A DNA stretch of 64,000 nucleotides from Bacteroidota bacterium (GTDB lineage: Bacteria > Bacteroidota > Bacteroidia > UKL13-3), in assembly GCA_947457395.1 (NCBI GenBank), contig CANGVA010000007.1, positions 62,001 through 126,000 on the forward strand, written 5' to 3'. The position numbers and the translations under genes were made by a program. The notes under the pieces are model-generated. The model saw only the letters and a program-made list of their open reading frames with translations. It had not been told where the DNA came from and made no database searches. Positions 3,293 to 7,570 of this stretch are shown here, piece by piece. Within the stretch, counting starts at the first letter, position 1. The number at the start of each line of letters is the position of its first letter.

Positions 3293-3320
3293 TAGTTCGA
3301 AGTTCATAGTTCGAAGTTAT
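3293..3320 (+). repeat. Left inverted end of the four-helix-bundle cassette (7-mer array)
   Basis: It starts on the base after the sufB stop. Two copies of TAGTTCGAAGTT lie at 3293-3304 and 3307-3318, period 14. On the minus strand it reads as heptamers AACTTCG, AACTATG, AACTTCG and then AACTA. It is the inverted counterpart of 3733-3772, and both arrays end outward in AACTA. TTCGAA within each unit is itself palindromic, so local and long-range pairing are both possible in RNA. Confidence 0.8.
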
Positions 3321-3335
3321 TAGAGTATAAACTGT

Positions 3336-3722
3336 ATGAGTAAAATAGAAAAGTTAGAAGATCTTATCATGTGGCAAAAAGCGATTGATTTGTCTGTTGA
3401 GATTTACACGCTCACAAATGCTCAGCTACTAAAAGATTTTAGCTTTCGCGACCAAATTCGTAGAGCGGCAGTATCGGCAGCATCCAATATTGCTGAAGGA
3501 TACGGAAGAGGCGGAAACGCAGAATTCAATAACTTCTTATCAATTGCAAAAGGTTCATTGTATGAACTGAAAACACAACTAATAATTGCCAGCCGTATTG
3601 ATTACATATCGTTGGCAGAATTCGAACACCTAAACAACGAAGCAGAAGAAATTGTAAAGCTTATTGCCGGTATGATGAATTATCTTCAAAACTCACCACT
3701 AAAAGGACATAAAAAGAAATAA
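3336..3722 (+). CDS. Four-helix bundle protein (23S rRNA IVP / Avd-like family)
   Basis: This 128-residue helical protein has family signatures MWQKAIDLSVEIY near the N-terminus, QIRRAAVSAASNIAEG (40-55) and AKGSLYEL (71-78). The family groups the proteins encoded inside 23S rRNA intervening sequences with the Avd accessory proteins of diversity-generating retroelements; most solo members have no known function. RNA or nucleic-acid binding is an inference from those relatives. It has no role in Fe-S assembly yet splits sufB from sufC in the same orientation, inside inverted arrays of 7-mers at 3293-3320 and 3733-3772. No reverse transcriptase or variable-repeat pair is visible nearby. Confidence 0.9.
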   Translation: MSKIEKLEDLIMWQKAIDLSVEIYTLTNAQLLKDFSFRDQIRRAAVSAASNIAEGYGRGGNAEFNNFLSIAKGSLYELKTQLIIASRIDYISLAEFEHLNNEAEEIVKLIAGMMNYLQNSPLKGHKKK

Positions 3723-3732
3723 TTTATAAACC

Positions 3733-3772
3733 AACTTCGAACTTCGAACTCAGAACTTCGAACTCAGAACTA
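3733..3772 (+). repeat. Right inverted end of the four-helix-bundle cassette (7-mer array)
   Basis: Contiguous heptamers run from 3733 in the order AACTTCG, AACTTCG, AACTCAG, AACTTCG, AACTCAG and then AACTA, with units starting at 3733, 3740, 3747, 3754, 3761 and 3768. It mirrors the array at 3293-3320. Eleven bases follow before the sufC ATG at 3784. Confidence 0.8.
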
Positions 3773-4561: not shown

Positions 4562-5851
4562 ATGAGCACAATCGAAAAATTAAAGAAAGATTTTGAACAC
4601 TACCGCGCACAGGCAGATGCCAGTGCATTTGCTCAACAACGCGAGAGCGCTTTCGTTGAGTTACAGAAACTGGGTATACCCTCTATTAAGCATGAAGAGT
4701 GGAAATATACCAACCTGAAATTTATAAACGATATTCCTTTTCAGGCATCGTGCCTGCATACAGAGGCGGCAAAAACTTACTACACACAAAACATCGTACA
4801 AACGCTTAAGGCTAACCGACTGGTGTTTATCAATGGCTCATTTGAAGCCACACTAACTCAAATTCAACCGGAGGATGCAGGCATTATAATTACCAATCTG
4901 GCATCTGCCCGAATTGCACATGCTGATATGTTTAGCAAGCATTTTGGTAAATATGCTACTGTTGAGGGTATAGCGTTAAATGCCATGAACACTGCGCTGA
5001 TGAGCGATGGCGCATTTATATATGTGCCTGAAGGTAAGCAAACAGCTTATCCGATTATCATCACCAATATTTCAGATGCAAGCGAAGTAAATGTATTGAA
5101 CCAACCTCGTAACCTCATAGTGGTAGAGAAAAATGCAGCAGCAACGGTTATTGAATCATTTTTTGCATTTGGCAATCATGCTTCTTTTTGCAATATTGTG
5201 AATGAGGTATATGTAGGTGAAAACGCAAGCCTTGAGCACTACAAGCTGCAACGCTTGCTAGGCGAGCATTACCAAAATAATTACACACAGGTATTTCAGG
5301 AAGGCAATACCCATATCAACCAGGTTACGCTTACACTGGATGGAAAATTTGTACGCAACAACCTGCACTTTTACATGAATGGCGAAAACTGCAATACCTT
5401 GCTGTATGGTTTGTATTTGCTGGATGGCAATCAGTTTGTAGATAATCATACACGCGTAGACCATGCCAAGCCAAACTGTTTCAGTGATGAAAAGTATAAA
5501 GGAATTTTAAAAGATAAATCTACGGCAGTGTTTAATGGTAAAATCATGGTTCATTTGGATGCACAAAAAACCAATGCATACCAGCGCAACCAGAATATTT
5601 TGTTAAGTGATGAAGCTACCGTGAACACCAAGCCACAACTGGAAATTTTTGCTGATGATGTGAAGTGTACACACGGAGCCACGGTGGGCCAATTGGATGA
5701 AGAGCCGATGTTTTATATGCGCAGCAGGGGCATCCCGGAAAATGTAGCTCGTAAATTATTATTGAACGCGTTTGCAGATGACATTGCCGAAAAAATAAAG
5801 ATCCCTGAATTGGTAGCCATACTGGAAGAGCAGATAGAAAAGAAGATTTAA
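4562..5851 (+). CDS. sufD: Fe-S cluster assembly protein SufD
   Basis: SufD is the second SufBD-fold subunit of the scaffold complex, needed for iron acquisition. The product has 429 residues with the N-terminal helical region (HEEWKYTNLKFIND) and the beta-helix core. The C-terminal motif KCTHGATVGQLDEEPMFYMR contains His371, equivalent to the conserved functional histidine of the family, followed by SRGI. It lies 19 bases after sufC. Its stop is followed by the second foreign insert, whose gene starts 62 bases later. The left flank 5855-5884 also contains three spaced AGATT words of a kind often dispersed in Bacteroidota intergenic regions. Confidence 0.96.
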   Translation: MSTIEKLKKDFEHYRAQADASAFAQQRESAFVELQKLGIPSIKHEEWKYTNLKFINDIPFQASCLHTEAAKTYYTQNIVQTLKANRLVFINGSFEATLTQIQPEDAGIIITNLASARIAHADMFSKHFGKYATVEGIALNAMNTALMSDGAFIYVPEGKQTAYPIIITNISDASEVNVLNQPRNLIVVEKNAAATVIESFFAFGNHASFCNIVNEVYVGENASLEHYKLQRLLGEHYQNNYTQVFQEGNTHINQVTLTLDGKFVRNNLHFYMNGENCNTLLYGLYLLDGNQFVDNHTRVDHAKPNCFSDEKYKGILKDKSTAVFNGKIMVHLDAQKTNAYQRNQNILLSDEATVNTKPQLEIFADDVKCTHGATVGQLDEEPMFYMRSRGIPENVARKLLLNAFADDIAEKIKIPELVAILEEQIEKKI

Positions 5852-5891
5852 ACATAGATTGCCACAGATTATCAGATTACACAGTAAATAC

Positions 5892-5934
5892 TTAACCACA
5901 AAGAACACTAAGTATGCACGAAGGCCGCCAAGAT
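5892..5934 (+). repeat. Left inverted end of the GxxExxY cassette (9-mer array running into the gene)
   Basis: TTAAC is followed by nonamers CACAAAGAA (5897-5905) and CACTAAGTA (5906-5914), two bases, then CACGAAGGC (5917-5925) and a degenerate CGCCAAGAT (5926-5934). The start codon of the enclosed gene (5914-5916) lies inside the array. The pattern CACnAAGnn recurs inverted at 6307-6345 with the same layout: two adjoining units, a two-base spacer, then more units. Confidence 0.7.
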
Positions 5935-6306
5935 TTATTGCTCGAAAAATTGGCAACTGAGGTGATTGGTCATGCAATTCATGTTCATAAAAAGCTGGGG
6001 CCGGGTTTGCTTGAAAATGCATACAAAGAGTGTATGTTATACGAGTTAAGGAAAAACAACCTATATGCTGAAAAAGAAGTTGCAATGCCATTAGTATATG
6101 AAGAGGTGAAATTAGATGCAGGCTACAGAATCGATTTATTGGTGGAGAATAAACTTGTTGTTGAGTTGAAAGCAGTTGATGCATTAAATGACGTTCATCT
6201 TGCTCAGGTTCTCACCTATCTGAATGTCGGCAATTTTAAACTTGGTTTATTGATAAACTTTAATGTAAAAATGCTCAAGGAAGGTATCAGGAGAGTTATA
6301 CAATAA
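5914..6306 (+). CDS. GxxExxY protein (PD-(D/E)XK-like family)
   Basis: This 130-residue protein has the name-giving motif GLLENAY (Gly31, Glu34, Tyr37), preceded by VIGHAIHVHKKLGPG. A nuclease-like core follows: YRIDLLVENKLVVELKA, with Asp74, Glu84 and Lys86 in the positions of a PD-(D/E)XK triad. Nuclease activity is inferred from fold and unproven; the family is widespread in Bacteroidota and has no assigned function. The ATG at 5914 lies within the 9-mer array, so the first residues (HEGRQD) are themselves encoded by repeat units. It separates sufD from sufS and shares their orientation. Confidence 0.9.
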   Translation: MHEGRQDLLLEKLATEVIGHAIHVHKKLGPGLLENAYKECMLYELRKNNLYAEKEVAMPLVYEEVKLDAGYRIDLLVENKLVVELKAVDALNDVHLAQVLTYLNVGNFKLGLLINFNVKMLKEGIRRVIQ

Positions 6307-6345
6307 CATTGTGTACTTTGTGCCTTCTTCGAGCACTTCGTGGTA
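6307..6345 (+). repeat. Right inverted end of the GxxExxY cassette (9-mer array)
   Basis: On the minus strand the units are CACGAAGTG (6342-6334), CTCGAAGAA (6333-6325), a two-base spacer, CACAAAGTA (6322-6314) and CACAATG (6313-6307). The array fills the space from the stop codon of the enclosed gene to just before sufS, whose ATG is at 6350. It is the mirror of 5892-5934. Confidence 0.7.
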
Positions 6346-6349
6346 AAAA

Positions 6350-7570
6350 ATGAAATTAGATATCAACCATATTCGTAATCAGTTCCCAATTTTACACCAA
6401 GAGGTAAACGGCAAACCTTTGGTATATTTCGACAATGCCGCTACTACCCAAAAACCACAACGTGTAATAGATGCATTGAACAAGTATTACACATTAGATA
6501 ACGCCAACATACACCGTGCTGCGCATACATTGGCATCACGCTCTACCGAATATTTTGAACAAACCCGCAAAGCCATTCAGCAATTCATCAATGCCAAGGA
6601 GGACGCTGAATGCATATTTACCAAAGGTGTAACAGAAAGCATTAATCTGGTGGCACAATCATGGGGCAGAAAGTTCCTGCAGGCTGGTGATGAAGTGGTT
6701 ATTACCACCATGGAGCATCACAGCAATATTGTACCCTGGCAAATGATTTGTGAAGAGAAAGGTGCCATACTGAAAGTAATTCCTATAAACGATGCAGGCG
6801 AGTTACTGATAGATGAGTATGACAAGCTGCTTTCACCAAAAACCAAAATGGTAGCTTGCGTTTGGGTAAGCAATGCGTTGGGAACCATTAACCCTGTAAA
6901 AGAAATTATAGAAAAAGCCCATGCTGTTGGCGCAAAGGTGCTGCTGGATGGGGCACAAGCATGCTCGCATCTGGAGGTAGATGTGCAGGCATTGGATTGC
7001 GATTTTTTAACCATTTCATCTCACAAACTTTATGGGCCAACCGGTGTAGGTGTATTGTATGGCAAACGCGAATTGCTGGATGCCATGCCGCCATACCAGG
7101 GTGGAGGAGAGATGATAAAAGAAGTAACCTTTGCCAAAACTACCTACAACGATATCCCATTTAAATTCGAAGCAGGCACACCCAATATTGCCGATGTGAT
7201 TGCTTTTAAATATGCACTTGATTTTGTGAATGAACTGGGCAAACCTGCCATTGCAAAACATGAAGACCAGCTGTTGCGTCATTTTGTAAACGGAATAGTT
7301 GAAATACATGGAATAAAATTGGTTGGAACCGCTGCGCAAAAAGTATCCGTTCAATCATTTGTATTAAACAATATGCACCATTTTGATGTCGGTATGATGT
7401 TGGATGCAAAAGGCATAGCTGTGCGCACCGGTCATCATTGCACCCAACCTTTGATGCAGCGATTTGGGATGGATGGAACTGTGCGTGCATCGTTTGCAGT
7501 GTATAATACTATAGAAGAAGTTGATGTGCTTTTGGATGCGCTGAGAAAATTAGCTAATTTGAACACTTAA
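6350..7570 (+). CDS. sufS: Cysteine desulfurase SufS
   Basis: SufS is a PLP enzyme that takes sulfur from L-cysteine, leaving alanine, and passes it as a persulfide to SufE. The product has 406 residues. The PLP lysine is Lys226 in SSHKLYGPTGVG and the active-site cysteine is Cys364 in RTGHHCTQPL, at the same positions as in E. coli SufS. TTMEHHSN and the Asp-containing ACVWVSNALG region bind cofactor. It lies 10 bases before sufE. The gene starts four bases after the right end of the GxxExxY cassette. Confidence 0.97.
   Translation: MKLDINHIRNQFPILHQEVNGKPLVYFDNAATTQKPQRVIDALNKYYTLDNANIHRAAHTLASRSTEYFEQTRKAIQQFINAKEDAECIFTKGVTESINLVAQSWGRKFLQAGDEVVITTMEHHSNIVPWQMICEEKGAILKVIPINDAGELLIDEYDKLLSPKTKMVACVWVSNALGTINPVKEIIEKAHAVGAKVLLDGAQACSHLEVDVQALDCDFLTISSHKLYGPTGVGVLYGKRELLDAMPPYQGGGEMIKEVTFAKTTYNDIPFKFEAGTPNIADVIAFKYALDFVNELGKPAIAKHEDQLLRHFVNGIVEIHGIKLVGTAAQKVSVQSFVLNNMHHFDVGMMLDAKGIAVRTGHHCTQPLMQRFGMDGTVRASFAVYNTIEEVDVLLDALRKLANLNT

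Follow-up and report, generated by a model that had tools for sequence, protein, structure and literature searches.

A gene of the GxxExxY family, located between sufD and sufS in the genome of a Bacteroidota bacterium, was found to be enclosed by matched inverted arrays of short repeat units. Hairpins of such arrays lacking the gene were detected only in genomes encoding GxxExxY, and the element therefore looks like an undescribed small mobile cassette. Its anatomy, the locus-specific matching of the arms, the clade-specific unit spacing, the dependence of gene-less arrays on the gene, the co-direction with the host operon and the turnover at single junctions were established directly. The broader interpretation, a mobile cassette residing in operons and recognised at its arrays by its own PD-(D/E)XK protein, could equally well prove right or wrong, with binding, cutting and mobilisation all inferred. 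The window denotes here the whole analysed stretch of DNA, 64,000 nucleotides in length, to which the coordinates given without a locus name refer.

Structure of the cassette in the sufD-sufS junction

The upstream host gene, sufD, occupies positions 4562..5851 of the plus strand (stop codon 5849-5851), and the cassette region lies 3' of this stop codon. The left array (5895..5934, plus strand) is composed of ACCAC with the units CACAAAGAA (5897-5905) and CACTAAGTA (5906-5914), the spacer TG (5915-5916), the unit CACGAAGGC (5917-5925) and the degenerate unit CGCCAAGAT (5926-5934). The ATG of GxxExxY (5914-5916) falls within this array, and the ORF (5914..6306, plus strand) encodes 130 amino acids and ends with the stop codon 6304-6306. 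The base directly after the stop codon is the first base of the right array (6307..6344), which is inverted. Read on the minus strand from the outermost unit inwards, it consists of ACCAC with CACGAAGTG (6342-6334) and CTCGAAGAA (6333-6325), the spacer GG (6324-6323), CACAAAGTA (6322-6314) and CACAATG (6313-6307). The downstream host gene, sufS (6350..7570, plus strand), starts with the ATG at 6350. All the array units named in an initial annotation of the region, made from sequence alone, were present at their places and correct to the base. The start codon inside the left array and the arrangement of two adjoining units, a two-base spacer and further units on each side were confirmed as well.

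Directly 3' of the sufD stop codon (5852..5885, plus strand), only the left half remains of what was an older CACAGATT-type array; the right partner is gone. This remnant falls outside the CACnAAGnn motif that had been proposed for the ends of the element. Two cases, in different genera, were observed of an AG-type cassette immediately interior to the left half of a GATT-type array that has lost its right half (locus L264, about 2575-2660, and the window, 5852-5934). One cassette may have taken the place of the inner and right portions of another.

The inverted match of the window's arrays was significant against dinucleotide-style shuffles (P = 0.0009), and the arms could be aligned in phase and without gaps over 44 nt, with agreement mainly at the motif letters. 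The triple-unit pattern CRCNRAGNNCRCNRAGN{2,6}CRCNRAG had a single match in the whole genome of the window, exactly at this locus, and the backwards control of the pattern gave 0 matches in 62 genomes (about 190 Mb). The genome-wide array counts presented here and below were obtained by pattern searches. Coincidence, by chance or through low complexity, at an otherwise ordinary gene would be in agreement with the degenerate right array and with the modest arm score of 28, which places the window among the weaker pairs. Against it stand the shuffle test, the single genome-wide match with zero control matches and the whole comparative record, and coincidence is practically ruled out. The strongest support comes from the comparison of many loci rather than from the window's own arms.

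The GxxExxY protein

The protein matched TIGR04256 with an E value of 4e-42 and 143 bits (curated cut-off 35) and PF13366 with an E value of 1e-40 and 139 bits (cut-off 22). PF13366 was the only Pfam match in the cassette protein; no recognised transposase domain and no Y1 domain (PF01797) was detected in it. Residues E34, D74, E84, K86, Q98 and Y102 were 96-100% conserved among 103 relatives, and 12 positions were invariant in an alignment of 14 members. The conserved residues form the PD-(D/E)XK pattern with a QxxxY motif of the RecB/lambda-exonuclease type; the nuclease activity itself is inferred. The AF2 model had a pLDDT of 95. The top solved Foldseek match was the Cas4 nuclease SSO0001 (4ic1; E 8e-4), followed by lambda exonuclease, with query TM-scores of 0.43-0.50. 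The sequence search for solved relatives returned nothing but spurious S100 matches, and PADLOC reported a weak Cas4-like similarity and nothing stronger. The PD-(D/E)XK-like core suggested by the initial annotation was upheld by the conserved residues, the model and the fold matches.

The window's GxxExxY and its ortholog in genome G001 differ by a dN of 0.027 and a dS of 0.22. A second GxxExxY copy in the window's genome (L001, at a locus termed site A) is flanked by CACAGAGGC arrays. The site A orthologs of two same-genus genomes, the window's and G001 (L001 and L040), differ by about 9 amino acids without any synonymous change in 125 codons, a pattern that gives no sign of constraint. The right array of L001 (1437-1490; G000:C23, minus strand) falls within the part of the downstream gene that codes for a signal peptide, and the hydrophobic stretch of this peptide, LCLCASVV, is encoded by the array.

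A regulatory or defensive module, in which the arrays would be control sites of a nuclease with another, anti-phage or toxin-like role, is supported by the fully conserved nuclease-type active site, by the weak similarity to Cas4 models and by the start codon in or beside the left array. However, neither mirror arrays on both sides nor gene-less hairpins would be needed for such a module. The cassettes are located in housekeeping operons (suf, fabD-fabG) rather than in defence islands, and no match to GxxExxY, which might have pointed to a phage origin, was found in 50,697 phage records. This explanation is considered unlikely.

Matching of the arms within the family and across phyla

In the window's family, 48 of 64 genomes had PF13366. 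Flanking sequence was read for 110 copies and was long enough at 108 of them for the arm test, in which the left 200 nt were compared with the right 200 nt in reverse complement and a score of at least 36 was considered high. The own arms reached this score at 60% of the 108 loci, in contrast to 3% with the flanks of other loci and 0.2% with shuffles; among flanks taken 500-900 nt away, 0/196 reached it. A second sample comprised 80 loci from named genomes, with many MAGs, of Bacteroidota, Ignavibacteria, Chloroflexota, Planctomycetota, Acidobacteria, Alphaproteobacteria and others. The own arms scored at least 36 in 61% of the 77 loci that could be scored, compared to 9% of cross pairs and 0/180 distant flanks. 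About 40% of loci have no clear arm pair by this score, and the threshold misses weak pairs such as the window's.

The element was also found on complete plasmids: between radA and the gene of a FAD protein in Bacteroides finegoldii, between ade and the gene of mannose-1-phosphate guanylyltransferase in Bernardetia, and between fabD and fabG in Sphingomonas parapaucimobilis. At the Sphingomonas plasmid locus (L309, about 1250-1322; NZ_CP155749.1), the 3' end of the GxxExxY gene contains the right array, which therefore encodes the C-terminus of the protein. The stop codon of this gene is located 2 bases 5' of fabG.

The counts across loci are not independent, since many copies are related by descent. 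Kinship was only partly corrected by the genus-wise permutation described below and by the phyla-wide sampling, and many of the relatives are MAGs. According to the initial annotation, the ORF and its ends form a single unit linked by the arrays, a claim to be refuted if other GxxExxY genes lacked such arrays or if random genes carried them as often. Neither was the case, and the claim is supported. The CACnAAGnn ends are only partly general, being one of several array classes, each of which belongs to a protein clade. The family, described there as widespread in Bacteroidota, proved to be wider and is not confined to this phylum.

Unit code and protein clade

Among 55 loci with CRCnRAG units, the same unit spacing was determined in both arms in 45 cases, whereas 17.8 were expected. 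The two variable purine positions of CRCnRAG agreed between the arms in 93% of cases, compared to 54-55% across loci; for the spacer letters, the corresponding values were 44-51% and 27%. The unit spacing (8, 9 or 10 nt) required 7 changes on the protein tree, in contrast to 15.2 after shuffling (0/200), and the clade with 8-nt spacing is common to Bacteroidota and Alphaproteobacteria. Other protein clades of the family are associated with other units: CACAGATT, CCCGCAGATT, TCTGAA...GATT and ACATAG. The first array-class labels scored many true weak pairs as 'none', and the link between class and clade is consequently understated.

At a site shared by genus g6, a 12-nt stretch of the left arm of genome G069 differs from that of the relatives and is identical to its own right arm, which indicates copying from one arm to the other. 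At site A, which g1, g2, g9 and g11 have in common, CACAGAG gave way to CGCAAAG in both arms together. The unit code may reflect a protein that reads units at fixed spacing, which fits the data better than pure base pairing does, although no binding data support it. Co-inheritance of array and gene is possible for any element with its ends and is alone no proof of binding.

A second cassette in the window and possible pairing at the RNA level

Between sufB and sufC, the window contains a cassette with a gene of a four-helix bundle (4HB) protein of the 23S rRNA intervening-sequence protein (IVP) family (3336..3722, plus strand; TIGR02436, E 2e-35; PF05635, E 2e-36). The left heptad array (3294..3318, plus strand) reads AGTTCGA, AGTTCAT, AGTTCGA, AGTT, and the inverted right array (3733..3771, minus strand) reads AGTTCTG, AGTTCGA, AGTTCTG, AGTTCGA, AGTTCGA, AGTT. 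The match of these arms was reached by 0/20000 shuffles. The sufB-sufC junction of the same-genus genome G001 (sufB 95% identical) is 35 bp long and empty of the 4HB cassette, and the junctions of G021 and G002 contain gene-less heptad hairpins. Of 33 4HB loci, 61% had own arms with scores of at least 36, compared to 5% of cross pairs and 0/58 distant flanks. The array period was 7 in 21/22 cases.

The cassette could instead act at the RNA level. The arms would pair in the operon mRNA, loop out the ORF and keep the neighbours translationally close, and RNase III, or GxxExxY with RNA as its substrate, may cut them. This explanation is possible. It is supported by the location of the cassettes in stop-to-start gaps inside operons and by the strong co-directional bias: where both neighbours share a strand, 77 loci agree with them and 4 do not. 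Moreover, the 4HB protein of the sister cassette belongs to the same IVP family as the proteins of 23S rRNA intervening sequences, which are excised by RNase III (PMC4990558), and the window's 4HB arms could form a duplex of -34 kcal/mol. However, G-U pairs were not in excess over A-C mismatches on the coding strand in three data sets when the composition was allowed for, and an RNA stem was rejected as the main constraint on these grounds. The agreement of the motif letters (93%) far above that of the spacer letters (44-51%) is not predicted by pairing alone, and the window's own GxxExxY arms pair poorly. The RNA-level explanation keeps weight due to the co-direction and the analogy with the intervening sequences.

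Gene-less arrays

In 720 kb around GxxExxY loci, 310 CRCnRAG tandem arrays were counted, compared to 21 for the reversed motif. The left arrays were mostly on the plus and the right arrays mostly on the minus strand. The same region contained 33 gene-less inverted CRCnRAG pairs; that gene-less hairpins are common had not been foreseen by the initial annotation. Triple CRCnRAG arrays were detected in 30 of the 62 related genomes, and all of these (30/30) encode GxxExxY. None of the 15 genomes without GxxExxY had such arrays (Fisher 8e-6), and the link between array and gene persisted in a within-genus permutation (P = 0.0003).

Genome G044 has one GxxExxY gene and 17 triple arrays. Of its 15 solo arrays, 13 carry the resident CACnAAG unit, and several of those read share its TTTAACAC-type outer end. 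Solo arrays resemble in their code the resident element more than the elements of other genomes (P = 0.006), in a comparison based on a hand-pruned list of solo arrays. In several genomes, solo arrays with letters unlike the resident element were observed. RAYT, a Y1 transposase (PF01797), had no match in the array-bearing genomes G001 and G056 and was rejected as the mobiliser. The presence of 4HB did not predict CRCnRAG arrays, and 4HB was rejected as their driver.

Turnover at single junctions

The sufD-sufS junctions of the window and G001 hold an AACCACnnAG cassette beside the left half of a CACAGATT array. In G010, G072, G020, G064, G065 and G068, the junction is occupied by another GxxExxY clade with CACAGATT/CGCTGATT arrays starting from the sufD stop codon; complete cassettes with these arrays were found at the position orthologous to 5852-5885 in G010, G020, G064, G065 and G068. 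The GTG start of sufS lies inside the end of the right array (AATCTGTGGC / AATCAGTGGC) in G010 and G020 (L010 and L013, near 1500). G066 has CACAGATT ends outside and CGCAAAG hairpins inside. Empty sufD-sufS junctions, the search for which had been proposed together with the annotation, were found: that of G009 is bare (TAGTGG), and those of G021 and G018 are without a cassette.

One junction of genus g3 is empty in G040, G003, G016 and G041. In G046 it is occupied by a gene-less hairpin, whereas 4HB cassettes are located there in G053, G050 and G051 (broken). G044 has a CACAAAG cassette at this place, with an orthologous one in G048, and G047 has a CACGCAGATT cassette. A third junction (g6) contains only gene-less arrays of several kinds. 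In L316 and L318, CTTCGACAAGCTCAGTGACC-type repeats were observed at the g6 junction, where sister genomes hold CACAGATT or CGCAAAG hairpins.

The clade II proteins (TCTGAA elements) are 84-94% identical and are located at non-homologous sites, which suggests recent movement or transfer. Many copies, including the window's, have stayed at one inherited site within a genus or between genera, and movement is therefore rare or old. Some junctions were reused by several cassettes, as might be the case for a homing endonuclease element, yet the elements occur at many unrelated sites. No target-site duplication was found between filled and empty junctions, the intergenic DNA being too diverged to define duplications, and no excision intermediate or product was found. 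The empty-site search with L257 gave no result because the left flank is itself repeated, and that with L271 gave repeat matches only.

The passenger model proposes that the arrays are spread by another activity, i.e. a transposase in trans, or replication slippage or template switching, and that GxxExxY is a gene captured between the arrays which has an unrelated task of its own. The model is possible. The arrays are often gene-less, the unrelated 4HB family has the same design with 7-mers, the junctions collect several repeat types, and the copying of arms is evidence that template switching occurs. In contrast, arrays are missing in 15/15 genomes without GxxExxY, a RAYT/Y1 transposase is lacking in the array-bearing G001 and G056, 4HB is not predictive of arrays, and the spacing follows the GxxExxY tree across phyla. 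That one design is shared by two unrelated proteins leaves the model with some weight.

Discussion

In the mobile-cassette interpretation, GxxExxY would bind the units of its own arrays, probably through a row of protomers placed at the unit spacing, and would cut or resolve the inverted-array hairpin. The cassette would spread by this activity, as would gene-less hairpins in trans, in the manner proposed for a RAYT and its REPINs. The co-directional bias would then be a matter of survival, as only those insertions that are read from the host operon without disturbing it would persist, and the arms would be re-matched over time by the copying of one arm onto the other.

The REPIN-RAYT system (PMC3116915) resembles the cassette in its inverted repeat pairs forming hairpins, its gene-less copies in intergenic space, its dependence on a protein gene among similar repeats and the coevolution of repeat class with protein clade. 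The REPIN-RAYT criterion of gene-less inverted pairs in protein-bearing genomes is met by the cassette (30/30; 0/15 without the gene). In contrast to the RAYT, a Y1 tyrosine transposase, the cassette protein is of the PD-(D/E)XK type. Each cassette arm is built as an array of 8-10-mers, not as a single palindromic REP, the inverted pair encloses the gene, and arrays are also present where a genome has no Y1 transposase at all.

The intervening sequences of 23S rRNA with S23p/IVP, e.g. those of Coxiella burnetii (PMC4990558), are likewise short in-transcript elements with complementary ends and one small ORF, and the window's sister cassette encodes the same protein family (PF05635). However, the cassettes are located in protein-coding operons (sufD-sufS, and sufB-sufC for 4HB), not in rRNA, and possess arrays of 7-mers or 8-10-mers without a G-U signature, and GxxExxY is an unrelated nuclease-like protein. 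Insertion sequences and MITEs share with the cassette a gene between inverted ends and gene-less derivatives with common ends. Unlike them, the cassette has no known transposase, its ends are locus-specific short tandem arrays, and no target-site duplication was seen. The RecB, lambda-exonuclease and Cas4 nucleases have the same fold and QxxxY active-site pattern, whereas GxxExxY is a minimal single domain of 120-130 amino acids without partner proteins and is embedded in arrays.

TAACTGA heptamer arrays have been described in Beggiatoaceae, Cyanobacteria and Bacteroidetes as direct repeats with no linked gene (PMC4679880). Similarly to the arrays of the cassettes, these are intergenic 7-mer arrays often located beside start codons, and horizontal spread by an agent not known has been suspected. 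They may be of the same class as the heptads of the 4HB cassette, which is only a lead.

No description of such cassettes was found in searches of open PMC papers, one of which mentions GxxExxY in passing. According to a bolder reading, the GxxExxY nucleases would be the enzymes of an undescribed class of mobile elements in many phyla, which read the clade-specific spacing of inverted 8-10-nt arrays and spread themselves and gene-less hairpins through operons. 4HB (IVP) would be a parallel class reading 7-mers, with the 23S rRNA intervening sequences as its specialised offshoot. We lean slightly against this reading at present.

Two widespread families without known function, GxxExxY and 4HB/IVP, gain a shared and testable context, namely matched inverted arrays with a repeat period characteristic of the protein clade. 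A source is thereby offered for the short intergenic repeats of Bacteroidota genomes, such as CACAGATT, CGCAAAG, CACGAAGG and similar ones. The cassettes also provide small, clone-ready pairs of a protein and its predicted binding site. If the enzyme indeed mobilises the arrays, this would be a machinery unrelated to known transposases that could be studied with one protein and one oligonucleotide.
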